Assembly: GCA_029309925.1 (NCBI GenBank)
Contig: JARKND010000001.1
Coordinates: forward strand, 2,232,001-2,296,000
Length of the DNA stretch: 64,000 bases
Source of the DNA: Fulvivirgaceae bacterium JP3-4
GTDB taxonomy: Bacteria; Bacteroidota; Bacteroidia; Cytophagales; Cyclobacteriaceae
Direction: 5' to 3'
The translations under genes were made by a program, and so were the position numbers. Shown in pieces: positions 41,146-61,329 of the stretch. The notes under the pieces were generated by a model. The model worked only from the letters and a program-made list of their open reading frames with translations, did not search any database and was not told the origin of the DNA. The stretch's first letter is position 1. The number at the start of each line of letters is the position of its first letter.

Positions 41146-41151
41146 GTGATT

Positions 41152-41445
41152 ATGCTAATCGAGATTGTTTCAGAATACAAAGCGATGTGTATGAACGTTG
41201 CGGAGATCATCGATAAGACGGGGTACAAAGTCGACTTTGTCCGCCAGAAACTGGGCTACTCGAGACCGGGTTGGTATAAAAAAAGAAAAACAGGAAACTT
41301 CTCTCCCGAGGAGTTGGCTGAGATTTTCAAAATTATTCGTGTAGAAGAACTTGAAGACAAAGCTCTCGGTGAAATCCTTGACAAGTCTAAATTGAGTGGT
41401 CGACTTACCGAGAAGGAAACTAAAAATATGATCGACTCACTTTGA
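41152..41445 (+). CDS. helix-turn-helix antitoxin-like protein
   Basis: 98 residues from ATG 41152. Small and charged: TGYKVDFVRQKLGYSRPGWYKKRKTGN is a helix-turn-helix with a basic turn, and LTEKETKNMIDSL closes the C-terminus. It precedes the RelE-like gene by one base and lies behind a palindromic promoter, so an antitoxin/repressor role is most likely. Family name not recognised. Confidence 0.65.
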   Translation: MLIEIVSEYKAMCMNVAEIIDKTGYKVDFVRQKLGYSRPGWYKKRKTGNFSPEELAEIFKIIRVEELEDKALGEILDKSKLSGRLTEKETKNMIDSL

Positions 41446-41446
41446 A

Positions 41447-41707
41447 ATGAAAGTGACGTGTTCAAAACAGTTTACAAGGTACGCGATCGCAGCTCCTAAA
41501 GAGATTCGCCATGGATTAAAAATAATTTACGCTGAATTTGAGAAAGCCAAAAAAGTGGGAGACGTAAAAGGTGTTGCACGACTTGTTGGCTACACGAAAT
41601 ATTATCGGATGAATATTCAGCATTACAGATTAGGTTTTGAGTGTACGGACGAGACGGTTCATTTCCTTTCGCTGCTACACAGAAAAGAAAATCAATTGTT
41701 TTATTAA
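41447..41707 (+). CDS. RelE/ParE-superfamily toxin
   Basis: 86 residues. KGVARLVGYTKYYRMNI and HYRLGFECTDETVHFLSLLHRKE have the layout of RelE toxins (a VxKL...YRVR-type sheet followed by a Arg/His-containing strand). It is a ribosome-dependent or free mRNA interferase or gyrase poison by family. Starts one base after the antitoxin stop (TGAAATG). Confidence 0.72.
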   Translation: MKVTCSKQFTRYAIAAPKEIRHGLKIIYAEFEKAKKVGDVKGVARLVGYTKYYRMNIQHYRLGFECTDETVHFLSLLHRKENQLFY

Positions 41708-41736
41708 CTAGATCTCGATTAACGAATTGAAAAAAG

Positions 41737-42396
41737 ATGCAAATTCTCAGAACGCAGTTTGAAATTAGATATACCAGTATCTTGGATTTCTCAACGAGGT
41801 ATAAAGCGATAATTTCGCCCTATTTAAAATTGGCGTCTTTTAAGATTGAGAATTTCTCACTTCCAGAAGAATACTGCGTCTTGGTATTTAAAGACGACCA
41901 AAGCGTAATAGATATAAGGTGGGATAGAATTATCTTTAGGATTAATACTCAAACTAGCCTATTTGAAAAACGCGGCCCAACCGCTGCATACTTCGAGATT
42001 CTTAAGAAATTAATGAGTTTAGATTCTTTTGGAGAAATATTGAATATCTTCCTGGCTCTTTGGGTATTGAACGAGGGCGTTAGTCAAGCCGAGTTTCTCG
42101 ATAAATATTTGAAAAGACGAACAAACGTGGGCGGATTTCAATTAGATGATGTGGCCATTGTCGAAGAGTTCAAGGGGGCATCTGATGAACACATTAGGAT
42201 CGAGCACGGTTTTTTTACTCCAGAAAAGGATTTAGCGAAATATGGTATTGCAGATCCAGATGGTTCACTGAAAACGAAAAAAGGACAATTTTTACAATTG
42301 ACGATTGTGACCAAGAAAGTGGAACCAACGGTTGAAGATTTTAAAAATCTGCATGAAAGAATCGAAAATTTGTATAAAAGCGAGTTTTTAAAATGA
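41737..42396 (+). CDS. unknown protein, first gene of a three-gene operon
   Basis: 219 residues, no signal or TM. FEIRYTSILDFSTRYKAIIS at the start and LTIVTKKVEPTVEDFKNLH near the end look like an alpha-beta fold of the TIGR04255 kind, but I cannot confirm it. The next start overlaps its stop (ATGA). AT-rich, part of the island. Confidence 0.6.
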   Translation: MQILRTQFEIRYTSILDFSTRYKAIISPYLKLASFKIENFSLPEEYCVLVFKDDQSVIDIRWDRIIFRINTQTSLFEKRGPTAAYFEILKKLMSLDSFGEILNIFLALWVLNEGVSQAEFLDKYLKRRTNVGGFQLDDVAIVEEFKGASDEHIRIEHGFFTPEKDLAKYGIADPDGSLKTKKGQFLQLTIVTKKVEPTVEDFKNLHERIENLYKSEFLK

Positions 42397-43049
42397 GTAA
42401 AAAGAACATTTCGAAGGACATTTGGAACTTCCATTCGAAGATTGGCAAGGCGCGGAAGAGGCCTGCAGACGAGCAGCTTTCTTTTTATTTTGATACTATT
42501 AGCAGCGACTGGGATAGATTAATTTCGATCACAGGCCACAATCCTGGGTTAATTCGTAATCCACACCATGGTGTTAGAATAACAAGTGCAGATGACTTTG
42601 TGCTTTTTGATTACGATGAAATTATCGACTCTTACATTATGGGCAGCAAACCAACTGCACCTGCGGAGGTCGTTGATATTTCAGATCTGTTTGTTTCAGA
42701 AAAAGGAGTTGTTAGTGAGCAGTGGGAAAAAATTGAAAATATTTCGGCAATAGTGGTAGGCAATAGTGGTGATCAAGTGACACTAGAGTGTTTAATCGAT
42801 GAGGAGAAAAAATTGTTTGAGCGCAGAATTTTTCCTGCACCACTTTTGAAAGGAGTCGTAAAACTCGAGGAAGGCAGTTTAATATTGATAAAAATATTTC
42901 AGCGGCCTGGAGAAATGAAATTCAAATTTGTAAGTGGGAAGGGAATTGTTCGACCTGAAGTATTTCAAAAAACCGATGCAATAGGAAAGGTTTTCAAAAA
43001 TATAGCAAAAGGTAAGTTTGACAAGCATTACAAAGGTGAACCTCGTTAA
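42393..43049 (+). CDS. unknown protein, second gene of a three-gene operon
   Basis: 218 residues, acidic to neutral, no membrane segment. WNFHSKIGKARKRPADEQL opens the protein; the rest contains beta-rich segments (VVGNSGDQVTLECLIDEEKK, GSLILIKIFQRPGEMKFKFV). Family not recognised. Translationally coupled to the upstream gene and 3 bases from the downstream one. Confidence 0.6.
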   Translation: MSKKNISKDIWNFHSKIGKARKRPADEQLSFYFDTISSDWDRLISITGHNPGLIRNPHHGVRITSADDFVLFDYDEIIDSYIMGSKPTAPAEVVDISDLFVSEKGVVSEQWEKIENISAIVVGNSGDQVTLECLIDEEKKLFERRIFPAPLLKGVVKLEEGSLILIKIFQRPGEMKFKFVSGKGIVRPEVFQKTDAIGKVFKNIAKGKFDKHYKGEPR

Positions 43050-43052
43050 CTA

Positions 43053-43976
43053 GTGACAATTAAATTTAAGGATGTTGGTCAGGGCGACTCTATCTTAGTT
43101 ACCTGGCTGATCGATGATAAGTTGCATGTTGGTATAATCGATTGCAATATTCATCAGGACAAAACGAATCCGTTACTTCTTGAGTTGAGTTCGATGGCTA
43201 TTGAGACTATCGATTTTATCTTTCTCTCTCATCCGCATTACGATCATTACAGTGGGCTTGAGGAATTGTTAATTTACTGCGCGAGCAAGAAAATCATCAT
43301 CGAAAAGTTCTTTCATACTTGTTCACCCACCGAAGAATTTCTTCGCGCTAGCGTGAGCACTCCATTGGAGGATCAGACTCTAGCTTCATTGTGGGCGCGA
43401 ATAGATGCATTAGAAGGTTCAATCATCCAAAGTATTGCGATGATTAATGAAGCCTCCGGTGCTACAACGCTAGATGGAAAATGGAAATTCGTGGTGTTGG
43501 CCCCTGCTTATCGCGAGCAGCAGGATTTTAACGCGCTGAGAATTTCCCAGCCCAAAGCAGCTTATAAGTCAAACTTGCTATCGACTATTATCAAGATTTA
43601 TTCACCTGACGCCTATATACTTTTGACCAGTGACGCAGAACATAAGACGTTCAAGCGAATTCTCATGCATCGTATGCATGCTGAATTTTCGAAATTAGAA
43701 TTATTACTAGGCCAGGTGTCTCATCACGGTGCAGAAGCCAACTTCCATGAGAAATTTTGGAAAAACCAAAAACATAATAAACTTTCACCCATGGCTATAT
43801 CGGTCGGGCCAAATCATTATGGGCATCCATCTGCCAATGTCATCTCGAAATTGCAAAGCCACAATTTCAAAGTCGATGTGACCATGTTAAACTCTTCGGC
43901 CGTGTCGACAGCGTTGAGCAGTATTTCTACCCTGGCGCCTGGTTCGACATCTAACGATTTAACATATTCTTTTTGA
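43053..43976 (+). CDS. metallo-beta-lactamase-fold protein (ComEC-like)
   Basis: 307 residues, GTG start. The motif IFLSHPHYDHYSGLEEL is the H-x-H-x-D-H metal site and VGQGDSILVTW is the start seen in ComEC/Rec2-like MBL proteins. A third His (LGQVSHHGAEANFHEKFW) and a fourth (GPNHYGHPSA) follow. No TM, unlike ComEC, so this is a soluble nuclease or hydrolase. It closes the operon started at 41737, which suggests a new conflict or defence cassette with an MBL effector. Confidence 0.75.
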   Translation: MTIKFKDVGQGDSILVTWLIDDKLHVGIIDCNIHQDKTNPLLLELSSMAIETIDFIFLSHPHYDHYSGLEELLIYCASKKIIIEKFFHTCSPTEEFLRASVSTPLEDQTLASLWARIDALEGSIIQSIAMINEASGATTLDGKWKFVVLAPAYREQQDFNALRISQPKAAYKSNLLSTIIKIYSPDAYILLTSDAEHKTFKRILMHRMHAEFSKLELLLGQVSHHGAEANFHEKFWKNQKHNKLSPMAISVGPNHYGHPSANVISKLQSHNFKVDVTMLNSSAVSTALSSISTLAPGSTSNDLTYSF

Positions 43977-43990
43977 AGCGCGAAAATTAC

Positions 43991-45229
43991 TTAGTCGAAT
44001 TTCTGAAAATGTTCGAGAAGGTTTGATTTGAGAAGTCGAATCTCGTAAAAATGTTCCCATTGCATGTCTGGTGGTAGGGTTGGGTTGCCGTGATAGATTG
44101 CGTAGAAGTTCATGAGTCTCTTATATACATCATAAGGAATTAATGAAAGTCTGTGTATTGCCGTTAGATCATCCATAAAATTCCCAGTTGCTAACATTGG
44201 CCGGTGCTTCTTTATGAATTCGTCAAGAAGTTTCTTAACACTTGCGAGTTCTCTAATTATTGATTCTATCAAGTCACTTTCACTTAAAGATCTTTCTGTC
44301 GCAGGCCAATCCCAATAATTATTTGCTGTTATGAAAAAATCAGATTCAATCTGCTTTACTTCGCTTACTAATTTTGGGGGGCCAGCCATTAACTGAAGTA
44401 ACTCTGAGAGCTTTATAATATGAAAGGACTGACCCGGCACCGCGTTTGAAAACTCTGCTACAAGCTCAAATCTCGGGTAAAGAATTTGGCCTTCGCTTTT
44501 CAAAACCCAGTCGGCTTTTTCTTCACCCGAAACAAACACGACACTTTTCTTAAATTTTTTCGCCAAGTCAATTATTGTAAACCAAATGAGCAAATCACCA
44601 ATACCATCGTCAATCTTCGATTGGTCTTTATAGCCAGGCGGAATCCGGTGCAAATATCTCCTGTCCAATTCTTTTTTTATTGCTTCCTTGTCAAGGTTCT
44701 CAAGATCGAAAACTACGCCTTTAGTGAACAAGTTTCGATATAACTCGCTGACTGGATCGTTCCATGCCCAATCTTTAATCTTGTTAAGGAGACGATCTAA
44801 TTTTGGTTTGTACTCGTCTTTAAATTTTTTTATTGTTTCATTGAATCGTTCCTCTAATTCAATCAAATTTTTGTATTCATCGATATTACTCAGCAGCGGG
44901 TATTTTGCATTGTTGAACTCTTGCATCACGTTAATTTTCCGATTGAGTTGCTGAAATAACTCCTTTATTCTGTCTGGGCGGTTGCTAGCAAACTCGCGAG
45001 CAACTTGTCCAGGAATGAATAACCTTTTCTCTTTGATCAACCCTGAATAAATTGAACTGATCTGTTGTACATCTTGCGAGCTGGTGTAGTAAGGCAAAAG
45101 CAATGCGTTTGTGTCGATAACAAAAAGACAGTCGTCCTTGACCGAGGACATCGCAGAATTAAATGAACTGAAAATATTTTCCGCGTTCGGATATATTGAG
45201 TTTTTAATGAAAGGGTCGGTGTCTGCCAT
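43991..45229 (-). CDS. large PIN-like nuclease protein
   Basis: 412 residues from ATG 45229. FVIDTNALLLPYYTS (first Asp), DDGIGDLLIWFTIIDLAKKF (middle acidic group) and VVFVSGEEKADW (last) match the large PIN-like family also seen at 27184. A helical C-terminal domain (about 290-412) is unrelated to that gene. Convergent with the MBL operon. The 45229 start is preferred over the ORF start because it places MADTD at the N-terminus. Confidence 0.7.
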   Translation of the reverse strand: MADTDPFIKNSIYPNAENIFSSFNSAMSSVKDDCLFVIDTNALLLPYYTSSQDVQQISSIYSGLIKEKRLFIPGQVAREFASNRPDRIKELFQQLNRKINVMQEFNNAKYPLLSNIDEYKNLIELEERFNETIKKFKDEYKPKLDRLLNKIKDWAWNDPVSELYRNLFTKGVVFDLENLDKEAIKKELDRRYLHRIPPGYKDQSKIDDGIGDLLIWFTIIDLAKKFKKSVVFVSGEEKADWVLKSEGQILYPRFELVAEFSNAVPGQSFHIIKLSELLQLMAGPPKLVSEVKQIESDFFITANNYWDWPATERSLSESDLIESIIRELASVKKLLDEFIKKHRPMLATGNFMDDLTAIHRLSLIPYDVYKRLMNFYAIYHGNPTLPPDMQWEHFYEIRLLKSNLLEHFQKFD

Positions 45230-45447
45230 GGAGTTCTTGGGGGTATTGAGAAGAACGAAAATAGCAATTCTTGCCAAATAATTTGTCAGTCAACGAGTCA
45301 TCTAAATTGAGCGTGAAGGACTAGCTCCCGTTCGTGAATTAAATGAAACATAGAATGCCGCGATGTCCAGCGAGAGCCCGCCCGGGAGGCCGACCGCGTG
45401 GGGGTGCGGGGGAGGGAGGCCGACCAGAGGGGGCGGACAAAAAATAA

Positions 45448-45499
45448 AGAGCCCTGGCCACACACGACCCCCGCAAAGATCTTAAGTGGCCAGGGCTCT
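45448..45499. other. perfect 14-bp hairpin
   Basis: AGAGCCCTGGCCAC (45448-45461) pairs exactly with GTGGCCAGGGCTCT (45486-45499) around 24 bases that include CGACCCCCGC. Immediately followed by a small terminator-like hairpin. Confidence 0.8.
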
Positions 45500-45518
45500 T
45501 GTGCAAGCACATTTTTTT
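45500..45518 (+). terminator. short hairpin with T-run
   Basis: TGTGC-AA-GCACA (45500-45511) then TTTTTTT (45512-45518). It follows the 14-bp hairpin, so a plus-strand transcript could end here. Confidence 0.5.
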
Positions 45519-45716
45519 ATGTGAGCGTGTGTCATGGAATGGTGCGGCTGCAGCGTCCGAGCGCAACAAGCGTGACAAACTGGAGCGGAGCGTCTGAAGG
45601 AAGTTAAAAAATATTGTGGCATGTGGGTAGGCGCTGGCAGTGGTTGAAAGAAGGAACGGAGGCGCAATGAAGTGTAATGGAGTTGAATGAGGTTGTGTTC
45701 TTAAATGGCGGGGATC

Positions 45717-45798
45717 TGCGCGCGGCAAAGTGGCTAGGCCAAAATGGAAACTCTGTTTTGTTTTTTTCTGTTTCATTTGGCCTTGCCAAGGCGCGGCC
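45717..45798. other. long imperfect hairpin with T-rich loop
   Basis: GGCCAAAATGGAAAC (45737-45751) pairs with GTTTCATTTGGCC (45770-45782), extended outside by TGGC...GCCA and GCGCGGC...GGCGCGGCC. The loop is CTCTGTTTTGTTTTTTTCT-like. Confidence 0.7.
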
Positions 45799-46047
45799 AT
45801 TTAAGTGCACGACCGATTGAACGAAATGTAACGGAATGGAGCTGGAGTGACGAAATGAAACCTCTGCCAGGCGTGAATATTTTTTGCCTGACTGAAAAGC
45901 GGAGCGGAAGTTTGGCGCGATTGTTTGCCGAGGCCATAAAAAAATGTGCGCAGCACTCCGCTAAACCCGAGAGTTGCTATCAGATGAAAGTTGCTTACTG
46001 GGCTCGCACGTTATATTTTGCATGAGTTACCAAAGGTTTATTTATGT

Positions 46048-46998
46048 ATGAAAGCCGAAATCCTTCGAACTAAGTGCTTGGCACTAATGAGATGCGGTGC
46101 TCTCGAAGACTGTCTAAACACAATTGGCATATTCGAAAACTTTCTATATCAGTTAATGAAGCGTCACGATATTGATCAGACTCATTCAGATGTTGATTCG
46201 GACTCAAAGATTTTTGCTCAGCTGCTATTTAGCAAACTAATTCATTTACGAAGGCTGCTTAATCATAATGAACATAATTCTGAATTTAGGCACGTTGCGT
46301 CCATCATTGATCCTAGTATTATTTCCGCAGTCGTAAGAAACGTTTTTGAAACCGCAGCGACATTTAACTTAATCTATCGAGACAAAAGCGAAGATGAAAA
46401 AAAGCTCATTTACAATCTTTGGGCCATTGCCGGACTAAACTATCGACAACGTTTTGCCACACCGGACCTCGACACCGAAAATATCGCTAAGTTAAATAAT
46501 GAGAACGCAAGTATTAATGATAGAATTGATAAAATAAAGAATGGTATGGTTTTTAGAAATTTGTCCGCACGAGGGCAGGGCAAAATACTCGATTCAATAA
46601 AGAAAAAAGATTTTCGAATCAGAGTCGAGGGAGATAACATAAAAGTTCTCTCCTGGCAGGATCTTTTTAAGGAGATGCATTTAACAGGAAGCTATTTTGA
46701 AAATATGTATACACTGTTATCATTGAATTCACATCCTTCTTACGTTTCGTTATTTCAATTTCGACAGATGTTTGTTAAAGGAAAAGATGAGTTCCTAGAC
46801 TTAACTCTCATTGATTTACGATTCTCGTTTATATTTTACAGCGTTTTTGTCGCTGATTTCATTGCGATGTTTCCGGGTGCAAAGGAAGATTTCGAAGCGC
46901 TGCCATTGGTACACCAAATAATTATGAACTTTCGTAACAAACTTTTTCGAGGGGACAACTACTCAATAAATGATTCGTGGAAGAATCTAAATGATTGA
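46048..46998 (+). CDS. unknown helical protein (DUF5677/HEPN-like)
   Basis: 316 residues from ATG 46048. No signal. Helical throughout; IDPSIISAVVRNVFETAATFN and SLNSHPSYVSLFQF resemble DUF5677-type proteins, where an R...E...H pattern suggests a HEPN relative, but no exact R-x(4-6)-H motif is plain. AT-rich. Follows the structured non-coding region on the same strand. Confidence 0.55.
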   Translation: MKAEILRTKCLALMRCGALEDCLNTIGIFENFLYQLMKRHDIDQTHSDVDSDSKIFAQLLFSKLIHLRRLLNHNEHNSEFRHVASIIDPSIISAVVRNVFETAATFNLIYRDKSEDEKKLIYNLWAIAGLNYRQRFATPDLDTENIAKLNNENASINDRIDKIKNGMVFRNLSARGQGKILDSIKKKDFRIRVEGDNIKVLSWQDLFKEMHLTGSYFENMYTLLSLNSHPSYVSLFQFRQMFVKGKDEFLDLTLIDLRFSFIFYSVFVADFIAMFPGAKEDFEALPLVHQIIMNFRNKLFRGDNYSINDSWKNLND

Positions 46999-47042
46999 AT
47001 ACTTAAATTATCTGGCATTTAAAAAAACGTCAGATATAAAAG

Positions 47043-47756
47043 TTAGCTCTGCTTCTTTGGCACGTCTAACAAGTTAATTGCCCATCTGAAGTAGTTTATT
47101 AGATCGGGACTGTTGCGTATTTCGGCCGCTGCATCGCTGTCCAAATGGACCAGTTGATTCCGCAGATTCCAAACCGTAAGGAGCTCAGCAATGGTTCCTG
47201 GATCATAAATTTCAGATTGCTTCAGCGCCTTAAGCATATGGTATGGCGTTGCTCGTGGGCCAGGATCAATGTGATTATTCGCGACAGCATTCCTGATTGC
47301 TTGTTCAAATGCGACCCCTGCTTGTGTAAGCCCAGCAAGAACAAAACCATTTTCTACGGCCCTAGTCGCCTCATCGATCATCCATCTCACGTGATCATTT
47401 GTCGTATTTTCCGGAGGGATTCCCGATTTGGAGTCTTGGGTAGGCTTGCGTTCCGTGGCAAGGGCTCTTAGTGCATTGATGGATTCCCTAACTTCAGAGA
47501 GGCTAGTTTGTATTTCTCCTTGGCTTGTTGAATCACGTAGATCTTTGGCTGTTCTCAAGTATTGGGTGACGAAATACATTGCAAAAAACAGTGCGGTAAA
47601 AAACTCTCTTATTAGTATTATAGGGCTTCTTTCGTTGGGTGCTGTATATGCAAAGACCGACACTGCCCAAACAACCGAAATTGCGAGTGGGATCCGGCTG
47701 ATCGTCCATTGTTTAAAAAGTACTCTTCTAGTTTCTGATGAAATGAGCAAACGCAT
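47043..47756 (-). CDS. membrane protein with HEPN-like domain
   Basis: 237 residues. One or two TM segments near residues 17-38 and 48-66 (FTALFFAMYFVTQYL), then a helical linker, then a domain with FVLAGLTQAGVAFEQAIRNA and LLTVWNLRNQLVHLDSDA, where RNQLVH fits the R-x4-H HEPN motif. A membrane-tethered HEPN protein may be an effector or sensor. No partner gene is obvious. Confidence 0.6.
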   Translation of the reverse strand: MRLLISSETRRVLFKQWTISRIPLAISVVWAVSVFAYTAPNERSPIILIREFFTALFFAMYFVTQYLRTAKDLRDSTSQGEIQTSLSEVRESINALRALATERKPTQDSKSGIPPENTTNDHVRWMIDEATRAVENGFVLAGLTQAGVAFEQAIRNAVANNHIDPGPRATPYHMLKALKQSEIYDPGTIAELLTVWNLRNQLVHLDSDAAAEIRNSPDLINYFRWAINLLDVPKKQS

Positions 47757-48228
47757 ACTGAATTGGAGTTGTTACCCGCTGAATGATGTCAGGTATCGGT
47801 GATGCCATGCAATGGGGTATGTCAAATATAAAACTTCTTTTAAGAACCAGATGTATTTACCCTAACTCATTTCACGATTTCAGAGTTGGCCTAAAAAGGC
47901 AACTCTGATAATTGAATTTGGAACTTAAAAAACTGCAGTGAGATGTGCAGCAAGGGAGATTTGCAGAATGAAAATGAGACCTTTGATTTTGGACAAGCGT
48001 AAGCCACAAACCACCAGTTTGCGATACTTACTTTTAGAATTGTTTTAAACATGTGGCCTTCACCGGACAGGAAATTTTTAAGGGCAAGGGCTGGCTACAA
48101 AAAATACTACCCGGTGATTGTGCGTGGATATGTGTGAGGGTGGAGATTTTTTTTAGCCAGGCAAAGCGGACCCTTGCGCTTTAAAATTTATCCGGCCGAA
48201 CTTTGCACATGTTTCAAAATAATTACCC
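47757..48228. other. intergenic region, nothing recognised
   Basis: About 470 bases without a credible gene or strong repeat. Confidence 0.4.
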
Positions 48229-48855
48229 TCAATTTTCTTGAAGGAACAATTCCGGTAAAAGTGTGGCATCAATTATTTTTGAGATATCTTCTATCGATCC
48301 GATTTCAAAAGTTAGCGGCCCGTCACTTGCTTCTTTGATGTGGAATCTAAATTCACTTTGGTAAGCAAATCTATCGGGCTTGTCATGCACTGTTAATTTT
48401 TCGTGCGATTGTTCTTCGTCATAGTATCTTACAAGGCCATAAGAATAGTTTAATTTTCCATGAGTGGCCTTCTTAAAACGCTGAAGAAATTCATTTTTGT
48501 CAAGAATTATTAATGCTTTATCTCCAAAATTAACATTTCTGGGATCGATGAACGGCTTCCCTGTCACATTCTCCTTCTTGATACAGAAGAGGCAAAACAA
48601 ATGAGTTTGAAGGTTTTCACGATCGTAAGGATGCATTCTTGCCTTTGTAATCCGGATTGGAATCTCTTTTCTTTCCTCGCCTATAAAAAGTTTGAGGTTT
48701 TCGACTTTGATGGATGCAGTTGCGCCTTCGCGATTGTCTTTTCGTTCTTGTTCTTTTAATTCCAAGTCTCGAAAATATTGAATGGTATTACAATAGATAA
48801 AGCCTCGCTTTTGCAGTGCTTCAATGTGTCCTGCTTGACCAATTTTAATTAACAT
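48229..48855 (-). CDS. unknown protein
   Basis: 208 residues, charged, no signal. KRGFIYCNTIQYFRDLELKEQERKD and DNREG read like a known uncharacterised family whose start has a short N-terminal strand, a F/YFN-x-YFR box and an Arg-x-Asp-x-x-Glu-Gly turn. Function unknown. Located in the island. Confidence 0.55.
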   Translation of the reverse strand: MLIKIGQAGHIEALQKRGFIYCNTIQYFRDLELKEQERKDNREGATASIKVENLKLFIGEERKEIPIRITKARMHPYDRENLQTHLFCLFCIKKENVTGKPFIDPRNVNFGDKALIILDKNEFLQRFKKATHGKLNYSYGLVRYYDEEQSHEKLTVHDKPDRFAYQSEFRFHIKEASDGPLTFEIGSIEDISKIIDATLLPELFLQEN

Positions 48856-49446: not shown

Positions 49447-49752
49447 TTATTTAAAGTCAATTTTGATTTGAGTAATCTTACCATCGTGAAAAACCTTTCC
49501 AGACGACTTTAGATTTCCTGCCCTTCCTCTGAAATAAACAGTATCCTTTGCGATGTCGTTGAATCGTGCGACTCGTTCGTATCTGCAGTCTGAATCATAT
49601 CTACCAGTCGAAAAGTTTTGTAAGCTTCGCGTCTCCAACCAAAAGCTAAATGAACAATTCGTTTCGCTATAAACTTGGACCTCATTGCGCGGCTCAAAAA
49701 AGTCAGAACAGGAAAAAAGAAAAACGCTGATTGTAAAAAATCGTTTCTTCAT
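49447..49752 (-). CDS. small lipoprotein
   Basis: 101 residues. Signal MKKRFFTISVFLFSCS gives a lipobox Cys at 15. The mature part has ETNCSFSFWLETRSL and DTVYFRGRAGNLKSSG. Its start overlaps the stop of the 49749 gene (ATGA-like), so it is translated with it. Function unknown. Confidence 0.6.
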   Translation of the reverse strand: MKKRFFTISVFLFSCSDFFEPRNEVQVYSETNCSFSFWLETRSLQNFSTGRYDSDCRYERVARFNDIAKDTVYFRGRAGNLKSSGKVFHDGKITQIKIDFK

Positions 49753-51020
49753 AAAATGAGGTATTGCAGGTATCCGCTAACTCTAACGTGACTTTTTCGC
49801 ATTTCTTCCTGCAGCTGATTTATTCGAAGCTGGAGCTTCCCCGTGTCATCCTGGTTAGCTGGAATGCTTTCAAGTTCCTTTCTACGAATTGTTAATTCTT
49901 GAACAGCTTTTTCCCTTTCATAAAGATCCATTTGATGAATTGAACTGGTAAGCTGATCAATGCGATACTGTAGGTCATGTCGGCTCTTTTCGGATAGACG
50001 TTTTTCGTTTTGTGTTTTTTGTAATTCATATTTTAATATTTCCATTTGGTTTACAAGTTTGTTAGTGACGGAGTCGGGAAGAAAAGCCATTACAGGATTG
50101 AACTGGTATTCCAAGTCCGCGGAAGCGGCCTTCGATGGCTTGTTGTCTTTTATGAAACTGAAGGTTGACGTGCTTTGTAGTTTGAGTTGCAAAATCGGTT
50201 TGTTTTTGATCAGATCTTTTAAGGAGTCCGGTGTGATGTTGAAGAAGAGTAAATCGGTTGTGGTAAGGTGCTGTTTGGTACGAGTGGGGGTTATTGTAAT
50301 AATCTTCATTTCATTATTGAGTTCTAAAAATTGTCGCCCATTAAATATGACAGCTTTTGATTCGGTCGAGTGAATTAGCAAACCTTCATCATTCGAAATG
50401 TTTCCATTTTTCATCAGTTGCACCTTTACACTCACGAGCGTTTCACTTTGTTTGTTCTCTTGGTGAAGGTGTTTTAGATCATTAAATGCTTTGTTGTAGC
50501 TCGTCCAAAAACCTTGTGCAAAAAGTGGCTGACATGTAATGCCCAAAAGGATAAAAATCGCAAAACATATTGCTTCTGTTTGTAGGTGAGAAGATTTTAA
50601 CCGGAGTTCGGGATTACCTGGGATTACACAAGGATTTCTCATGAATGGCCATAGCAGCGGAATACCTTGCTTCGTCATCATGTCAAAAAGCAAATGAGAA
50701 AAGAAGGCGAATGCAAAAATTAATGTTATCTCATTCCCACCTGGCGTCACGGATTCCAAGAAATATATTAGAAGCCATGCTGACAAGAAGAAAATCAGGC
50801 TGTGAGTGATTGTGCGGTGGCCATACTTTATGTATAGCCATTTTGCGATAGGGTAGAAAAGTTTTCCAATTGGACTTTTGAGATGGTCAACGTCCGGCAG
50901 AATTGAAAAGAATGCAGTGAAAAATAAATATTCTGGTTTCTCAAATACGTTGATGTTCCAGAAGCTGGCGAAGATTCCAGTAAAGACTGTCCCGCCAACG
51001 ATGTGATTTGCTCCACTCAT
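49749..51020 (-). CDS. YdjM-type metal-dependent hydrolase with coiled coil
   Basis: 423 residues. The N-terminal 165 residues are a DUF457/YdjM-type inner-membrane hydrolase: NHIVGGTVFTGIF, SILPDVDHLKS, KYGHRTITHSLIFFLSAWL and FAFFSHLLFDMMTKQG, with four to five hydrophobic helices and the His/Asp metal motifs. The rest is a periplasmic or cytoplasmic extension that ends in a coiled coil (about 320-405, DLYEREKAVQELTIRRKELE). The extension is unusual for the family. Gene order 51105, 49749, 49447 suggests one envelope-related operon. Confidence 0.72.
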   Translation of the reverse strand: MSGANHIVGGTVFTGIFASFWNINVFEKPEYLFFTAFFSILPDVDHLKSPIGKLFYPIAKWLYIKYGHRTITHSLIFFLSAWLLIYFLESVTPGGNEITLIFAFAFFSHLLFDMMTKQGIPLLWPFMRNPCVIPGNPELRLKSSHLQTEAICFAIFILLGITCQPLFAQGFWTSYNKAFNDLKHLHQENKQSETLVSVKVQLMKNGNISNDEGLLIHSTESKAVIFNGRQFLELNNEMKIITITPTRTKQHLTTTDLLFFNITPDSLKDLIKNKPILQLKLQSTSTFSFIKDNKPSKAASADLEYQFNPVMAFLPDSVTNKLVNQMEILKYELQKTQNEKRLSEKSRHDLQYRIDQLTSSIHQMDLYEREKAVQELTIRRKELESIPANQDDTGKLQLRINQLQEEMRKSHVRVSGYLQYLIL

Positions 51021-51104: not shown

Positions 51105-52433
51105 TCATAAATTCTTATTTTGATTTCTTCGAGCTTCAGCTTTTTTCTTAGACTCTTCAGCCTTTGCCGCATAGTATTTGGCAAGAGTAGCTGAGTTGTT
51201 TTCAAACTGGGTTTTGCTATTTTTTTCTAAATCCAGAGCTGCATACAATTCACGTATTGACTCCTCTGAATAATGTTCTTGCATCAGCTTGCTAACATCA
51301 GCATCCTCGATAATTTCGCTGAGGAATGATCGCGAGGAAATTAAAGACTGCTTGCTTTTGAATAATTCACCAAGATGGTTTAACGCCACCCTCTTTTCGT
51401 TTAATTTAAAATGCGATAACACCCGATAATGTTCGAGAAACGACCAATCATTAGGATACTTTTTTATAAGCTTTGTCGAGACTTGAATACACTTTCGGTA
51501 TTGTTTTGAATAGTAGAGATATTGGATCATTTGAATTGAAATATTCCTGTCCCTTAGCTTGTTGTTCTCAACACGCTTTTCAAGCTCTTGAAATAATCCG
51601 TAAAGTTCGAACAGGTTTTCGGTCATGTAGGATAATGAAGGATTGACTGGTACCATTTTACCAAGAGTTGGGAGATTAGATTCTGCGTTACGGGTGTATG
51701 AGTATACGCTCATTTTTTTTCTAATATTCTCTAAAAGCAGAATCTCAGCGGGAGTAAGAATGTTACTAAAATCAAATATTTTGTCGATGGTCTTGTCTAT
51801 TTCGTCAGTGTTGGCTTTCATCGACAGACCAATAGGCATAAGTACGGAACTTATTTGCTTATCGAATTGGTAGGTCTCGTTTAGGCACTTGTTTTGGAGC
51901 GCCATTTTTATGTCATCTTTGGTAAGTCCGCCACCTCGAATTTTTTGCTGGTAATGTGATGGAGAATGTCCGTTTGATGCAAGAACCAGGTCAAAATGGG
52001 TAAACAGTTTCGTATAAATATGATACATATCCAGTTCGAGCTTTGGCCTCAGCTTTGAGTGTCTACGCTGTTCAGGTCTAAAGGAGAATACCCACCAAAA
52101 GAGAAATGCGGAAAACATTGACAAAATAAAAGGGTAAATAAAATCCTTGCTTACGTTGAAGGCTGGGTCACTTGATTGCCTGTCCAGTGCTTTTAGCAGT
52201 TCTGCTGCTTTGTTTTGCTTTTCTAAAAGAGAGTCTTGTTTTTTTGCAATGGTTTCATTAAGTGCTTTTGACTCAGTGCGAATGGCATTCAAATCTTTTT
52301 TCAGTGTATCAATTTGTGTAGTAATTTCATTCAGTTGGCGCTGATTTTTTGTTTGAGATTGGGATTGCGAATATCCGGACAGACAGGAGATGAATATAAA
52401 AACGAAAACTAAAATTTGACGGTTCCTTGACAT
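51105..52433 (-). CDS. exported coiled-coil membrane protein
   Basis: 442 residues. Signal-like N-terminus (FVFIFISCLSGYSQ), a coiled coil (about 30-80, IDTLKKDLNAIRTESKALNE), a TM helix (about 99-116, FILSMFSAFLFWWVFSF), then helical TPR-like repeats (about 300-400). No enzymatic motif. It may build a scaffold with the 49749 protein. Downstream of the recombinase-ATPase gene by 45 bases on the same strand. Confidence 0.6.
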   Translation of the reverse strand: MSRNRQILVFVFIFISCLSGYSQSQSQTKNQRQLNEITTQIDTLKKDLNAIRTESKALNETIAKKQDSLLEKQNKAAELLKALDRQSSDPAFNVSKDFIYPFILSMFSAFLFWWVFSFRPEQRRHSKLRPKLELDMYHIYTKLFTHFDLVLASNGHSPSHYQQKIRGGGLTKDDIKMALQNKCLNETYQFDKQISSVLMPIGLSMKANTDEIDKTIDKIFDFSNILTPAEILLLENIRKKMSVYSYTRNAESNLPTLGKMVPVNPSLSYMTENLFELYGLFQELEKRVENNKLRDRNISIQMIQYLYYSKQYRKCIQVSTKLIKKYPNDWSFLEHYRVLSHFKLNEKRVALNHLGELFKSKQSLISSRSFLSEIIEDADVSKLMQEHYSEESIRELYAALDLEKNSKTQFENNSATLAKYYAAKAEESKKKAEARRNQNKNL

Positions 52434-52477: not shown

Positions 52478-53992
52478 TTATATAAATTTCCTTTTTGTGA
52501 ATGAAAAGAGATAGCGAGAGAATATTAGCAGAATCATAGCACATCCTCCAATGAATTTCAACGAGTCGTTGCCGACCTCATGACTCATATATCGCAAGAT
52601 TGCGAGTCCACCGAGCATGATTAAAACAGTAAGGCTCATATCGAATTCCCTCATACTTCCAAAATGCCTGACCGATTTTATAACTTCAGAAGTGATCACA
52701 ACCTCTTTTCGGTAGCGCTCGATCAATTCATAAATCACACGCGGATTTCCTGAGCTTTGCTCCCATATGTGATTCCGAAACAGCTCCATGTCTTCAATGT
52801 CGATGTCATACGCAAGTTTGTGAGTCAGTTCCAATGCGTTTTGTCGAGTTAGCGTCTCTAATTTAATTACTTCAAAGTTCCATAAGAATGAAGATTTCTC
52901 TACACTGATTTGCCTGGCGCTTGTTACAATCACAAAATGGTCTTTCAATAATTCTAATGTCTTAATCCCTTTTGGAGTAATGCGATCGCAGTTGTCAATT
53001 ATTAACAGATATTCATGTTTTGTCGTTGCCTTAATGAGTTCGTTACACAAATTAATGACACTATCTTTTTGGAAATGGTGATCGAGTTTTGACAGGTCGA
53101 AATCTCCGTAGAGTAATTTGAATACGTGTTCTTTGTCGTTTTTGTATAGATACATCAATGCCGCGATTAATGTTTTTTTAAGATCAGAGAAATCATCAAA
53201 GCGAATTATTTTTTTATCAGTCTGTATGTGGTTTAATAAATGGGTTTTCCCAACACCGATCGGTCCCATGAAAATCGTGTTACAGTTCTTGTTTATAAGT
53301 TCGTTCACTCTTAATAATTCTGAGTTCCTTCCAAGTATAAACTTTGTTGATTCTCCTTGAATATTAATTAAAATAGGTCTGGGTGGTGGAAATATGTAAC
53401 ATTTGAGTCTTTGCCAAAGTGTTAGTTTGATTTCAGTTGCCTTGTCAATTCTTGACTTCAATATCTGTTGTGGGATGTGAGCGTAAATGAGTGTCGTGTC
53501 ATATTTTTGATGGCCTAAAATTTCTTTGATTTCATGCAATTCAGCTCCAGATGATAGGAGTGAGGTAGCGCACGTATGTCTCAATGCATGTGGGTGTAAA
53601 TTTCTAAAATCTGGGTCTCGTTTTTTGATCCTGTAACAGAGTTGATTCATTGCTTTACGAGAGATATGATTTTCCAAATTGTTAGGTCTTGGAAACAAGT
53701 AGGCTTCGGGATTTTTTGTGTTGAAATCTTTGAGATAAATCGCGAGTTCGTTGTAAAGTCTTTCGGAGATTGGAACCTTTCGAAATTTCTCTGTATCCCT
53801 TTTCTTTAACGATTTCACGGTTACACTTTTGTTTCTAAAATCAAAATTTGACAGTCTCAAGCTCACACATTCACTGACTCTTAAGCCACAATCCATCATG
53901 AGTAAAATGGCACATCTATGACTTTGATTCCGGAGTTTGGTAAGGAGTTTATCAGCCTTTCTTTTGTCTAAGTATGAGAGTTCAGTTGCCAT
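52478..53992 (-). CDS. tyrosine recombinase fused to P-loop ATPase and TM tail
   Basis: 504 residues. Residues 1-175 are a tyrosine recombinase catalytic domain: Arg38 (GLRVSE), Lys60 (TVKSLKKRD), His135-x-x-Arg138 (HPHALRHTCA), His161 (LGHQKYDTT) and Tyr170 (LIYAH). It starts right at the catalytic domain, so the N-terminal core-binding (SAM-like) domain of XerC/D is missing. Residues about 215-430 are a P-loop ATPase: Walker A GPIGVGKT (243-250), Walker B YLLIIDNCD (328-336), a sensor-like VIVTSAR and QSSGNPRVIYELIERY. The last 60 residues hold two TM helices. So a DNA-cutting domain sits on a membrane-anchored ATPase. It is adjacent to an iteron-like region and a primase gene, and should act on the element itself. 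Confidence 0.85.
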   Translation of the reverse strand: MATELSYLDKRKADKLLTKLRNQSHRCAILLMMDCGLRVSECVSLRLSNFDFRNKSVTVKSLKKRDTEKFRKVPISERLYNELAIYLKDFNTKNPEAYLFPRPNNLENHISRKAMNQLCYRIKKRDPDFRNLHPHALRHTCATSLLSSGAELHEIKEILGHQKYDTTLIYAHIPQQILKSRIDKATEIKLTLWQRLKCYIFPPPRPILINIQGESTKFILGRNSELLRVNELINKNCNTIFMGPIGVGKTHLLNHIQTDKKIIRFDDFSDLKKTLIAALMYLYKNDKEHVFKLLYGDFDLSKLDHHFQKDSVINLCNELIKATTKHEYLLIIDNCDRITPKGIKTLELLKDHFVIVTSARQISVEKSSFLWNFEVIKLETLTRQNALELTHKLAYDIDIEDMELFRNHIWEQSSGNPRVIYELIERYRKEVVITSEVIKSVRHFGSMREFDMSLTVLIMLGGLAILRYMSHEVGNDSLKFIGGCAMILLIFSRYLFSFTKRKFI

Positions 53993-54020
53993 GGATTTTG
54001 AGTTTTCTGTTTTTCTAGAG

Positions 54021-54340
54021 TTTCATCTTACCATCTTACCTCAGTGGTTTTGAGCCTTTGATTTTCAGCTATTTATGATCAGGTAACTTCAGCTTTGGTC
54101 ATCTTACCTTTTTTAGGAATTACCTTTTTTCTTTCAGTTTTTGTGGGAAATTTTTCTTTATGGGGGTTCGGGGGTGTTGACAGAATTCCGATTTTGTCCA
54201 CTATAGTTTTGGCCAAAAAGTGGACAAAACAGGCCAGGGTAGGATAGGTAAGATTGGTAGGATGCCATTTTTAGGATGTTACCTTATTTAATTGTCTGAA
54301 AATCAATTTAATATCAGCTTCAGGTAAGTTAGGTAAGATG
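54021..54340. repeat. GGTAAGAT iteron-like cluster
   Basis: ATCTTACC at 54025-54032, 54033-54040 and 54101-54108, GGTAAGAT at 54247-54254 and 54332-54339, with variants GGTAGGAT (54256), ATGTTACC (54276) and GGTAAGTT (54323). They are spread in both orientations around a palindrome, between the recombinase-ATPase and primase genes. They could bind a replication initiator, the recombinase, or a regulator. Confidence 0.65.
54192..54229. promoter_or_regulatory. 11-bp inverted repeat around TTTTGGCCAAAA
   Basis: TTTTGTCCACT (54192-54202) pairs with AGTGGACAAAA (54219-54229), and the centre TTTTGGCCAAAA (54207-54218) is itself a perfect palindrome. It sits amid the iteron-like repeats. Candidate origin or recombination core. 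Confidence 0.7.
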
Positions 54341-54356
54341 GTTTTCGGTTTTTGCC

Positions 54357-56561
54357 TTATACTTTTCCCTGTACTGGTTGATTCTGCTTCAGACACTTCA
54401 CATAGTAGCCGTACCGTTGTGTAGCAGAGTTCTTCACTTTCTGGTGTTTGTGAAAGATCATCGCTCTTCCAACCATGATTGAATTCAGTTTAATGGTCGT
54501 CCAGGCTTGCATATAGTTGTGGATCTCAGTGCTTGTCATAAATTCACCTTTCGTTGAATCGGATGGCTCGATAAAGTTTGGCAGTAGCTCTACTTCCGGG
54601 CCAAGTTGGTTGAACTGTGCGTTGCGTTCCTCATTTTGTTTGACTTCTTCTTGCGTCAACTCCGCCTGGTATCCGGATTTGAAGAGCGAGTACGCCTGGC
54701 TCCATACGTCATCGATGTTTACGTTCTTCGTACCTGTGATGGTGTTGTTGTAGTCATGATTAATAGATTTGATTTTAAAGCACAGCCATCGAACTGATCC
54801 TGTTTCATCCTGCAGGAATTCACCCATGTTGGTTGATCCAACGAAAGAACAAACACGCTGGACAACTGATGCACGACTCTCGTACGGAAGCCTTACATTC
54901 ACTTTGTCAAGACTAATCCAACTCTTGACGATATTGATATCAGATCTCGACAGCTGCTTCAGCTCATCCAGATTTATTATGAAGTTTGTCGCCAACGCGA
55001 TCAAGCTATCTTTCTGCTCCGGATTGATGTTTTCCGCGATGTAATCTGAAAGGGCAGGAGGGCAGAGGAAACGCATAAACGTGGTCTTACCACTGTTGTG
55101 TTCTGCGTGCACAAGAATTAAAGCTTGCTTATTAAAGTAGCCATCAATCATTGAACACTTAACCGCACGTACCAGCCATTTCTTGAAGTGCAAATTGAAA
55201 GCTTCCTGGTCTTCACATTTCACATGGCTTGCAAGCTTATCGATATAGTCGGGCTCATTATCGTTCCACTCCTTGAGGTTTTCAAAATAGTATTGGATGG
55301 GATTATATCGAGGGCAAAAGTCAGACTTCAATAATGCTTTCAAATTATTTAACGAGATCTTTATTCCTGCTTTGTTCAGTTCGATGAATAAGGAGTTCTC
55401 ATTGATCTCTCTGTAAGTGAATTCATCGATGGTAGAGAATTCGAAAACATGTTTGATAGAGTTAAACCGGAACGTATATTTTGATGTGAGGTAGTCTTCA
55501 GCCTGATGAAAAACTGTGTTTCCCTCGGACTTCTGTTTACGCTCTTGATCGGTTTTTTGCTTACGGTTAATGGCGTCAGATAATAGCCGTTGGAAATCTG
55601 GTTTCTTGTATTTGGTGAAAAATATTGCCAGGTCTTTGCAATCTGCCGGAAGGTTGATCGGATTGATGCCAAATGTTTTTTGCAATTTGGCCGATGCGTT
55701 CTTACCGGCTTCATCATTGTCGTAACAGGAGAGAAGCACCTTTGCTTTCAGCCTTAAACTCTTTATTAAATCTTCCTGCGGAAGCTGGTTTTCGCTCTGA
55801 AGAGAAATTGCGTTGAAGCCATGTGCATTTGCACAAAGACAGTCTTTTTCACCTGCAGCGAAAATAATGTATTCATGTGGTGGCGGTTGGAGTTGTGCCA
55901 AACCAAAAATGTCAGAGCTCGTTTGCGACTTGTACCCAAACGATTTTTTCTGACCGCGAAAATTCAGGTCATTGTTAAATGCATGGGGGATCTCGGGAAC
56001 ATATATTTTTAATCGATCGGAGATATTGTAGCAAGTTACAGCCTGGTTGAGCTTGAGGTAATCAAACGAATAGTTCTTTCCAGCAGAGTTCGTGAACGCA
56101 AGTAATTTGACTTGACGAACTTTGAACTTCAATAGAGTTGCCTGGTCAATTCCAAACAGTTTCCAGTATGCAAGGAATAAGGGAGTGAAGCTTTGGTACT
56201 CGATCTTAAATGGTGAGGTGTCGGTCTTTTCTTTTTCTGACTGCTTTTTGGTCTTCGATGACCCGTTCAGCCCCAGATTTAGATTCTTGTCAATAATTTC
56301 GAGGACCTGACGAAAGTTTTTCTTGCAATCAATTTTCTCCCAGTCGGCTACAAATTGAAAAATGTCTCCTTGATTGCCGCTATTATGACTCTTGAATTTC
56401 CAGCCTGTTTTATCCCTGTAAAAAGAAAGGGAAGGATTGGAGTCCTTGCCACCAAATGGACTGCGATAGTTCTTCTTAGCAGTAGAAATAAAATCTGGGA
56501 CATAAAACCGAATTATGTCTTCTTCCGTTGTACATTTGAGAACCTGCTCTTTTGTGATCAT
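54357..56561 (-). CDS. TOPRIM primase with VapE-like helicase
   Basis: 734 residues. The N-terminal 100 residues resemble a DnaG-type primer-template domain without the CHC2 Cys set (YRSPFGGKDSNPSLSFY, GNQGDIFQFV). A TOPRIM core follows at about 230-320: IFAAGEKDCLCANAHG and VLLSCYDNDEAGKNA. The last part (about 430-660) is a virulence-associated E helicase: EHNSGKTTFMRFL (Walker A, Lys492 region), FIINLDELKQL (Walker B), NMGEFLQDETGSVRWL (arginine-rich sensor). It would prime and unwind DNA for replication of the element. Its start overlaps the stop of the TolC-like gene upstream. Confidence 0.8.
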   Translation of the reverse strand: MITKEQVLKCTTEEDIIRFYVPDFISTAKKNYRSPFGGKDSNPSLSFYRDKTGWKFKSHNSGNQGDIFQFVADWEKIDCKKNFRQVLEIIDKNLNLGLNGSSKTKKQSEKEKTDTSPFKIEYQSFTPLFLAYWKLFGIDQATLLKFKVRQVKLLAFTNSAGKNYSFDYLKLNQAVTCYNISDRLKIYVPEIPHAFNNDLNFRGQKKSFGYKSQTSSDIFGLAQLQPPPHEYIIFAAGEKDCLCANAHGFNAISLQSENQLPQEDLIKSLRLKAKVLLSCYDNDEAGKNASAKLQKTFGINPINLPADCKDLAIFFTKYKKPDFQRLLSDAINRKQKTDQERKQKSEGNTVFHQAEDYLTSKYTFRFNSIKHVFEFSTIDEFTYREINENSLFIELNKAGIKISLNNLKALLKSDFCPRYNPIQYYFENLKEWNDNEPDYIDKLASHVKCEDQEAFNLHFKKWLVRAVKCSMIDGYFNKQALILVHAEHNSGKTTFMRFLCPPALSDYIAENINPEQKDSLIALATNFIINLDELKQLSRSDINIVKSWISLDKVNVRLPYESRASVVQRVCSFVGSTNMGEFLQDETGSVRWLCFKIKSINHDYNNTITGTKNVNIDDVWSQAYSLFKSGYQAELTQEEVKQNEERNAQFNQLGPEVELLPNFIEPSDSTKGEFMTSTEIHNYMQAWTTIKLNSIMVGRAMIFHKHQKVKNSATQRYGYYVKCLKQNQPVQGKV

Positions 56562-57223
56562 TTCTCATTAGAGTTAAGTGGAACATCTGAACTAATAAGA
56601 AGGGAGACCCAATCTCCCTTTTTTGCTTTTATCAGTAGCTCACTTCGTGAGCGATATAAATCGTACAGTTTCTGGTTGACTTGATTTTTTTCAGACGACA
56701 AACTGATTTGGCCAGCCAGGTATTGGCTTGGAAGAATCAAACTGTTTTCGAAATCTTTTTGAGTGATTGAAAACTTCTGTTTTTCTAGCTCTAGCCTTTC
56801 AATAGATGAATTGTAAACTAAGACCTGATAAGTAAGGGCTTGATAAAACTGCGTCACTTCGATCAGAGCGGCATTCATCAAAGTCTCATTGGTCCGGACT
56901 ATCTGCCTCGCTTGAGCTTTCATAGAACGATCAAAATTTATTGCCTGGAAGAAGATACTGGTGTTAACTGTTAGCATCGGTGTTCCAGCGTAATTCCAGC
57001 CCGGCATCGGCAAATAGTTCAAAATCTTGCCTTTGGAGCGATAATTAAACTGCTCAAGCTCTGCTATTGCCTGTTTTTTATAGAAATTGATACACGACTT
57101 ATGGAGGGTGTCCAGAGGCGGCAAAAAAACCTCGATTGAGACCGTCTGAGCGGTCAGTTTTTCGCTAACTAGAAGTATACATGAAACGACCCAAAGTATT
57201 GAAAATAACCGTTTTATGGGCAT
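56558..57223 (-). CDS. TolC-like secreted protein
   Basis: 221 residues with a signal peptide (cleavage near LTAQT). Long helices (IAELEQFNYRSKG, LIEVTQFYQALTYQVLVY, IERLELEKQKFSITQKDFENS) match one half of a TolC/outer-membrane efflux fold. It is about half the usual 420 residues, so it is either a truncated or a dedicated small member. It is coupled to the primase (AAATGATC overlap), an odd pairing. First gene of that operon. Confidence 0.6.
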   Translation of the reverse strand: MPIKRLFSILWVVSCILLVSEKLTAQTVSIEVFLPPLDTLHKSCINFYKKQAIAELEQFNYRSKGKILNYLPMPGWNYAGTPMLTVNTSIFFQAINFDRSMKAQARQIVRTNETLMNAALIEVTQFYQALTYQVLVYNSSIERLELEKQKFSITQKDFENSLILPSQYLAGQISLSSEKNQVNQKLYDLYRSRSELLIKAKKGDWVSLLISSDVPLNSNEK

Positions 57224-57472
57224 CGTATACCCCGTTTTAGTTGTATAATTTATATTATGTTAAATAGAAGAATGAACGATCAATGTCTTACGTGTCGTTC
57301 GCTTATCTGGATGGTTAGAATGTTGTATCCGTCAAGTGACCACTCCCCAACTGCGACCAGCGCAACTTCAGTTTCGCTCGATACCAGTTAGCAGCGCGAT
57401 GAATGTTTGCTGCATGTTCGGAGATAGTTTTATCTCGCATCATTTTTTGAGATCGACTAGCGATGAAATCTT
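57224..57472. other. intergenic region at the island's right side
   Basis: No credible gene; leads into a low-confidence plus-strand ORF. It presumably contains the promoter of the TolC-like gene. Confidence 0.35.
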
Positions 57473-61317: not shown

Positions 61318-61329
61318 AGCAATTTTTTT

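Follow-up and report, generated by a model that had tools for sequence, protein, structure and literature searches.

A tyrosine recombinase fused to an ATPase and a predicted membrane hairpin in an element inserted at a chromosomal dif site

One gene of Fulvivirgaceae bacterium JP3-4 raises the question of why a tyrosine recombinase should be joined, in a single polypeptide, to an ATPase and a membrane anchor, and whether such a protein belongs to any system already described. The gene lies in a stretch of 64,000 nucleotides (GenBank assembly GCA_029309925.1, contig JARKND010000001.1, positions 2,232,001 to 2,296,000 of the forward strand), the whole of which is referred to here as the window. 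A preliminary description had read the open reading frame (ORF) as a recombinase catalytic domain without a core-binding domain, followed by a P-loop ATPase and two transmembrane helices, and had taken it for a possible new architecture for integration, excision or defence. All three parts were indeed found in one intact minus-strand ORF (Table 1), in which residues 7-173 matched Phage_integrase (E 3.2e-31) and residues 241-430 matched NB-ARC (E 1e-5) in Pfam.

Table 1. Features of the element and of its ends, in positions of the window
Feature	Position	Strand	Details and evidence
Left end, dif-like site	41057..41086	+	XerC-side arm TATAA, centre TTTATA, divergent XerD-side arm GTATGAGTATT
Cargo part	41146..48855	.	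Includes a small HTH-like ORF (by eye) and unknown ORFs
MBL-like ORF	43053-43976	+	Cargo; HxHxDH motif by eye
PIN_8 ORF	43991-45277	-	Cargo
DUF5677 ORF	45991-46998	+	Cargo
YdjM-family membrane protein	49749..51020	-	423 aa; YdjM 5.5e-27 (Pfam)
442-aa ORF	51105..52433	-	Signal-like N-terminus, coiled coil, one further predicted membrane segment
Fusion gene	52478..53992	-	504 aa, ATG through stop
Xer-type tyrosine recombinase catalytic domain	53423..53992	-	Residues 1-190; Pfam, fold match, alignment
ORC/Cdc6-TnsC-MuB-STAND type ATPase	52655..53362	-	Residues 211-446, Walker A K249; Pfam, fold match, alignment
Two-helix membrane hairpin (predicted)	52505..52645	-	Residues 450-496; AlphaFold model and Kyte-Doolittle
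Intergenic TTACCT/AGGTAA repeat stretch	53993..54356	.	Candidate replication origin
Candidate second recombination site (weak)	54175..54202	+	TGTTGACAGAA-TTCCGA-TTTTGTCCACT, 187 bp upstream of the fusion
Toprim/VapE-type primase-helicase	54357..56561	-	734 aa; VapE-like 4.2e-38 (Pfam)
Predicted secreted helical protein	56558..57223	-	221 aa; TolC-like (OEP) cluster, by clustering
Right end, complete dif	57237..57266	+	TTAGTTGTATAA-TTTATA-TTATGTTAAATA

The structures of both halves were predicted, as the preliminary description had proposed, and the folds agreed with its assignments. In the AlphaFold model of the fusion (mean pLDDT 78.7, fair to good inside the domains; domain packing poor, pTM 0.47), residues 1-189 have the fold of XerA, their best match (Z 22.3, rmsd 3.2, 180 aligned), while residues 209-456 matched the ATPases of Cdc6/ORC, TnsC, MuB and plant NLR proteins at Z 14.5-16.8 (NRC4: Z 16.8, rmsd 3.4, 222 aligned; Cdc6p: Z 16.0, rmsd 3.0, 216 aligned; TnsC: Z 14.9, rmsd 3.2, 214 aligned; MuB: Z 14.5, rmsd 3.4, 209 aligned). 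The ATPase is followed in the model by two C-terminal helices (453-473 and 476-490), and a Kyte-Doolittle scan gave two membrane segments in the same region (450-468 and 478-496). Neither a SAM-like core-binding domain nor an FtsK_SpoIIIE motor domain was matched in the fusion by Pfam at E 0.1, and the open frame which holds the fusion is only 514 amino acids long; the N-terminal core-binding domain is therefore absent, as had been claimed.

The same fusion was found elsewhere, on plasmids of Bacteroidota and of a spirochaete and on contigs. A total of 26 fused loci were collected (the window, five Bacteroidota plasmids, one spirochaete plasmid and 19 contigs), and recombinase and ATPase share one ORF in 25 of them; in the exception (L022) the break falls in the recombinase part. 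The ORF of one further locus (L036) ends ahead of the hairpin, and that of the spirochaete plasmid runs off the start of the record. In a tree with 12 unfused relatives, the 26 fused ATPases formed one clade with support of 1.0. A frameshift or misassembly joining two genes is ruled out by this single clade together with the 25 undivided ORFs, and the latter equally dispose of the possibility that homologues always carry the two halves as separate ORFs. Judged from sequence and predicted structure, the recombinase-ATPase-hairpin fusion is a genuine, conserved single-chain architecture, of which the hairpin is a predicted part.

It was observed that the recombinase accompanies this type of ATPase even when it forms no part of the query. 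A search with the ATPase-membrane part alone gave 11 plasmid records, with a fused recombinase in all five Bacteroidota plasmids among them and in a spirochaete plasmid. When one genome per species was scanned across 84,980 species with a peptide pattern placed in the ATPase, 62 candidate stretches yielded 19 confirmed loci; the recombinase part was present in every one of these, and in 18 it lay in one ORF with the ATPase. The fusion is rare in more evenly sampled chromosomes, being matched in 2 of 148 family genomes (its own and one with a broken remnant); of 395 phylum genomes, 4 gave a match (its own and three without a fused recombinase). A remnant on the chromosome of a relative (L048, 6728-7000, genome G066) is a broken copy of the C-terminal part of the fusion. 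An ordinary phage integrase was rejected as an explanation, as the ATPase-membrane part had no match in 50,697 phage records at E 1e-5; the whole fusion protein likewise gave no confirmed match among viral contigs.

Conservation of catalytic residues was counted in 18 of the 26 fused loci, namely the window and 17 of the 19 contigs, the broken L022, the truncated L036 and the plasmid records being left out. The arginine R38 is kept in 18/18 and the Walker A lysine in 18/18, while H135, H161 and Y170 are each kept in 16/18, in agreement with the preliminary description as to the arginine, both histidines and the tyrosine. Two of its assignments had to be corrected: the recombinase lysine is K63 (17/18) and not K60, which is not conserved, and the Walker A lysine is K249, one position before the residue named. 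An aspartate stands at the aligned Walker B position (333) in 14 of the 18. In two loci (L032 and L033) H135, H161 and Y170 are all lost and Walker A is retained; in the truncated L036 both histidines are gone and the tyrosine is retained (by eye).

The fusion gene was found to lie in a 16,196-bp stretch (41064-57259, the 16.2-kb element; 39.6% versus 44.6% GC) within chromosomal dif, the site that ordinarily serves to unlink the chromosome when the cell divides, and the suggested link to integration was thereby upheld. The core TATAATTTATANTATG occurs twice in the 5.8-Mb genome, at both ends of the element (the second copy at 57244) and in the same orientation, and its reversed control has zero occurrences in that genome. 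The exact dif 20-mer TATAATTTATATTATGTTAA was present in 57 of 118 family genomes, in single copy in all but two, and its reversed control in none of the 118. The sign change of the GC skew near dif was rough only, and KOPS-like octamers were few within the window. At the other dif loci examined (29/29), the module genes were absent within up to 1.5 kb per side. The left dif-like copy, taken as a 30-mer, has 9 mismatches, which is not significant alone, as the best of 15 random windows gave 8-11; the left end was accepted as dif-derived on account of independent cases instead.

Two of these cases are R. columbina (L026) and a Flavobacteriaceae MAG (L027), in which the VapE primase, the fusion and YdjM are enclosed by two such sites, the second site of the MAG with one core mismatch. 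The core was present in 6/6 genomes of the genus of R. columbina, in single copy in four; R. columbina itself has three copies, two at the ends of the element and a third, exact one (contig C57) within another ORF. In a further genome (G538, locus L123), two cores 8.77 kb apart enclose an element, the fusion of which shares 96% identity with the R. columbina fusion, and in its counterpart (G539, L125) dif is unoccupied and has the same flanking genes. The alignment of these two genomes on one flank (6,158 bp at 91.8%) reaches and crosses dif, and that on the other (2,036 bp at 96.7%) starts at a distance from dif of 66 bp in G539 and 118 bp in G538. Elements at dif were thus observed in four loci (the window, L026, L027 and L123), all of them located via the fusion. 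A similar empty-site pair sought in the window's own genus was rejected, since one genome (G084) has a dif without element genes (20 kb) but its flanks differ.

Two other observations were made beside dif sites. In the genus of R. columbina, one contig (L127, G541:C26, 8496-19899) has a weak tyrosine-recombinase match (8e-9) beside dif and a block of approximately 5.2 kb tandemly doubled near it, and looks like a different dif-inserted element or a small phage. The right flank of the element in the window (57825-63411) holds cupin, ferredoxin-like, globin-like, FixO and cytochrome oxidase subunit I genes.

As to the other genes of the element, clustering of 27 loci placed the 442-aa ORF in no shared cluster. 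Between primase and fusion, the TTACCT/AGGTAA repeats (with AGGTAGG/CCTACCT) number 8 in 364 bp, out of 44 across the 64 kb, and similar repeats occupy the same interval in R. columbina (10 in 715 bp) and in the Flavobacteriaceae MAG (7 in 1251 bp); from its repeats and position, this stretch upstream of the fusion looks like a replication origin. The 221-aa helical protein had no Pfam match of its own, and its putative link to OEP is indirect and weak.

Candidate recombination sites beside the fusion were compared across the loci. In a close group of five (L034, L035, L037, L038 and L039), ACGCGACAAAA-N6-TTATGTCGCCC lies 248-356 bp upstream of the fusion, with nearly constant arms and four of the six central bases variable, and another locus (L008) carries ACCCGACAAAA-TGATTA-TTTTGTCGGGT 29 bp downstream of the fusion, the right arm alone being retained in its three Flavobacterium relatives. 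The pattern GACANAA-N6-TTNTGTC was exact in 7 of the 26 fused loci (mononucleotide shuffles gave 0.28 exact matches per Mb), was present with one mismatch in two more at 1.3-2.9 kb from the fusion, and was found in none of the other 17; four other Saprospiraceae loci (L030, L032, L033 and L036) were unmatched. For the candidate in the window, the strict inner pattern recurs once elsewhere in the genome and the wider form has 4 occurrences, compared with 5 of the reversed control, so that its position alone argues for it. Inverted 11-6-11 sites were also sought more generally around the fusions, but this search was set aside, having given many matches of the kind expected by chance in AT-rich DNA, and the case for a plasmid-type site therefore rests on the five-locus group, L008 and, weakly, the window; such a site beside the fusion is suggestive only. 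Two plasmid-type sites in one strain (pHALHY01/02) were also considered and rejected, the arm pair being found in L011 and L030 only and in none of the pHALHY02 stretches read.

The ATPase and YdjM were found together well beyond the fusion, for the most part on plasmids. With an unfused ATPase as query, 48 plasmid records were obtained, 35 of them covering at least 80% of the query; five are the fused Bacteroidota plasmids, and the remaining hosts are Thermus, cyanobacteria, Gammaproteobacteria, a fusobacterium, Desulfocapsa and others. At least 32 of the 48 also carry YdjM (among the 60 listed of 112 YdjM records), at a distance from the ATPase of at most 1,800 bp in the 32 shared records listed. 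YdjM was present in 38 of the 40 loci read, a count which includes the archaeal plasmid pTBMP1, itself reached via YdjM, and Thiospirochaeta, where an IS110 gene separates YdjM from the ATPase, 4 kb away; in the two loci without it (L033 and L036), the sequence stops 1.2 kb and 72 bp, respectively, past the fusion. On the evidence of gene neighbourhood, YdjM is the standing partner of the ATPase-hairpin protein.

TolC-like proteins recur beside this pair, two Bacteroidota clusters spanning 14 of the 27 loci clustered and matching one another by profile (probability 96.2, E 2.5e-9); matches of the combined profile to its own seed sequences were left out of the evidence. Hhalign gave no match of the Bacteroidota profiles to those of Gammaproteobacteria or Thermus. 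Pfam OEP matched the protein from Thermus (1.7e-9) and, just under the cut-off, those from the fusobacterium (1.8e-4) and from Flavobacterium pA5BP1 (5.4e-4).

Recombinases other than the fused one were observed next to some unfused ATPases: in Desulfocapsa the overlapping gene run that contains the ATPase also includes a tyrosine recombinase, two genes upstream of it, and in two loci the ATPase is directly followed by a large serine recombinase (L044, by Pfam; L045, by its N-terminal sequence). No recombinase directly adjoined the ATPase in the loci read from Thermus, cyanobacteria, Fusobacteriota, Thermococcus and Gammaproteobacteria. The two loci with a serine recombinase are chromosomal (L044, 4725-10188; L045, 4689-10282) and hold a long YdjM, a RadA-like zinc-finger protein (by eye), the ATPase-hairpin protein and the recombinase in succession. 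In two cyanobacterial plasmids a HerA/TrwB-like ATPase gene lies directly 3' of YdjM (L050, 6397-7470; L055, 10820-11932), and genes of the thermonuclease family turn up repeatedly close to the module on unrelated plasmids (annotated in L049, L050, L052, L054 and L055; by eye in L025 and L026).

The fusion could well be an element-encoded membrane recombinase, similar in its working to XerCD with FtsK, which maintains or moves the element; this is the reading that we tentatively prefer. By its fold, the ATPase would be an ATP-dependent switch which licenses or positions the recombinase, as TnsC and MuB do for transposases, while the hairpin would dock the fusion onto an envelope complex of YdjM (and the TolC-like protein). 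The recombinase would act at a dif-like 11-6-11 sequence on the element itself; it would resolve multimers of the element and possibly also insert it into dif or excise it, so that the mode would be that of XerCD with FtsK, except that recombinase, ATPase and membrane anchor are in one protein. The order of domains in one chain, the standing partner in the membrane, the occurrence on mobile elements and the recurrence of recombinases all point to site-specific recombination under control at the inner membrane. Also in favour are the single ORF in 25/26 loci and the single clade, the catalytic set (16/18) and Walker A lysine (18/18), the Xer fold, the four dif elements with an empty site, the recombinases beside unfused relatives and the dif-like sites. 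Against it stand the loss of catalytic residues in 2/18 and in L036, the host Xer-like proteins, which could themselves insert the element at dif, the plasmid-type site, exact in 7/26 loci only, and the pTM of 0.47.

A further point against the preferred reading is that the module can do without a recombinase, since unfused relatives in several phyla have none directly beside the ATPase. It is possible, if on balance unlikely, that the ATPase-hairpin protein forms, together with YdjM and the TolC-like protein, an unnamed envelope-spanning machine, which plasmids of several bacterial phyla and of at least one archaeon carry for upkeep or passage. The Bacteroidota would then have fused a site-specific recombinase onto its motor, and some elements would have used the resulting self-contained membrane recombination machine to colonise dif.

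An unlikely explanation is that the fusion is a site-specific DNA tether, in which the recombinase domain mainly binds the element's site, ATPase, hairpin and YdjM hold the plasmid at the envelope for partition, and catalysis is secondary or, in some lineages, lost. The two loci of 18 which have lost H135, H161 and Y170 and retained Walker A are consistent with this, as is the YdjM kept in one of them (L032), but the other 16 retain all three residues. ParA, found in 11 of the 27 clustered loci and adjoining the module in several, bears on the matter in two ways, as it places the module in a partition setting but also means that partition is already provided on such plasmids.

It is distinctly doubtful that the fused recombinase is simply the element's integrase, acting at dif in place of the host XerCD and regulated by the ATPase and membrane parts. 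Its Xer-like nature and its presence in four dif elements would agree with this, though all four were located through the fusion. However, no dif match, even with one mismatch allowed, was found in the loci that carry Rep genes, which argues that the fusion also serves replicons outside dif; moreover, known dif elements rely on host enzymes, according to the parts of PMC5357621 and PMC9765430 covered here, and the host genome has Xer-like protein genes.

Export or DNA transfer by an envelope-spanning apparatus of the ATPase, the adaptor-like periplasmic domain of YdjM and the TolC-like protein, with the recombinase only preparing or resolving the transported DNA, appears quite improbable. It is favoured by the C-terminus of the Thermus YdjM, which is adaptor-like (membrane-fusion-protein-like; DevB 2e-4 and Biotin_lipoyl_2 0.002, both below the cut-offs) and lies next to the TolC family gene, by a coupling-protein-like ATPase downstream in UTEX 3055 (TrwB 2.3e-10), by the typing of 47 of the 48 ATPase plasmids as non-mobilizable, and by the model of the window's YdjM (pLDDT 86.1), which has a C-terminal beta domain and a long helical hairpin. 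Among the 10 YdjM proteins scanned, such sub-threshold matches came from Thermus, and the model had no match in the PDB at E <=0.001. Against this explanation, the model resembles MacA, EmrA and AcrA only weakly and in the helical hairpin alone (Z 6.2-8.1), and unrelated coiled coils score higher (up to Z 10.5). In other groups, several YdjM proteins have only 287-369 aa and lack such a hairpin at their end (by eye), and the ATPase-YdjM pair is present in an archaeon, which has no outer membrane.

A defence or exclusion role, of which defence had also been raised, is highly improbable; in it, a STAND-type sensor would respond to incoming DNA, phage or stress at the envelope and the recombinase would be its effector. 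Despite an ATPase fold common to NLR/STAND proteins, an order from effector through ATPase to sensor, and weak P-loop matches of unfused ATPases (mad8 3.3e-5 and 0.0077, Avs4 8.7e-4), there is no repeat-type sensor and the PADLOC set had no match for the fusion, the 442-aa protein, YdjM or the OEP-like protein, the primase giving a partial RTasDnaG-like match (3.9e-9).

Neither the fusion nor the ATPase-YdjM plasmid module was found described in the literature searched (subscription papers lay mostly outside it), and as far as that search reaches the claim of an undescribed architecture stands; the wider module has a fair chance of being something new. The ATPase-YdjM pair, conserved on plasmids from hosts as different as Thermus, cyanobacteria and an archaeon, indicates a plasmid function that is so far unexplained but is now testable. 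With simple tyrosine recombinases, which have no arm-binding domain, the fusion shares an Xer-like catalytic domain, but it differs from them in having no core-binding domain and in the attached ATPase; in the main text of a survey of tyrosine recombinases (PMC8138268), a word count found the words ATPase, P-loop, fused and transmembrane unused. As in tripartite MFP-TolC systems, an inner-membrane part, a helical-hairpin part and a TolC-like protein are co-encoded, most clearly in Thermus, although the similarity is weak, no ABC or RND pump was seen adjoining, and the TolC-like protein has only about 160-240 amino acids.

The element resembles the integrative mobile elements exploiting Xer (IMEX; GGI, TLC phage and LME-1) in lying at chromosomal dif between direct dif-like repeats, one end of which is a complete dif. 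In GGI and TLC phage, a divergent XerD-side arm is likewise found at one end, with the XerC-side arm and centre kept (PMC5357621, in the parts covered here). By its ends, the element fits this known dif-inserted class, yet it brings its own tyrosine recombinase, together with a VapE primase and YdjM and TolC-like genes; the parts of the sources covered describe no such recombinase for GGI, TLC phage or LME-1.

The ATPase of the window is of the same fold class as TnsC and MuB. These are ATP-dependent partners of a recombining enzyme, but are separate proteins which serve DDE transposases and are not known to have a membrane hairpin. In well-studied bacteria, Xer recombination at dif depends on the host FtsK at the septum. 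The system proposed here would share with XerCD-FtsK an Xer-type recombinase, 11-6-11 dif-like sites and a membrane-anchored ATPase controlling recombination. If this is true, a recombinase, an ATPase switch and a membrane anchor in one chain at dif would amount to a minimal form of Xer-FtsK coupling, and would offer a way to ask what membrane and ATP add to Xer recombination. Unlike XerCD-FtsK, the fusion is one chain, its ATPase is of the ORC/TnsC/STAND type and not an FtsK translocase, and it is encoded by a mobile element.
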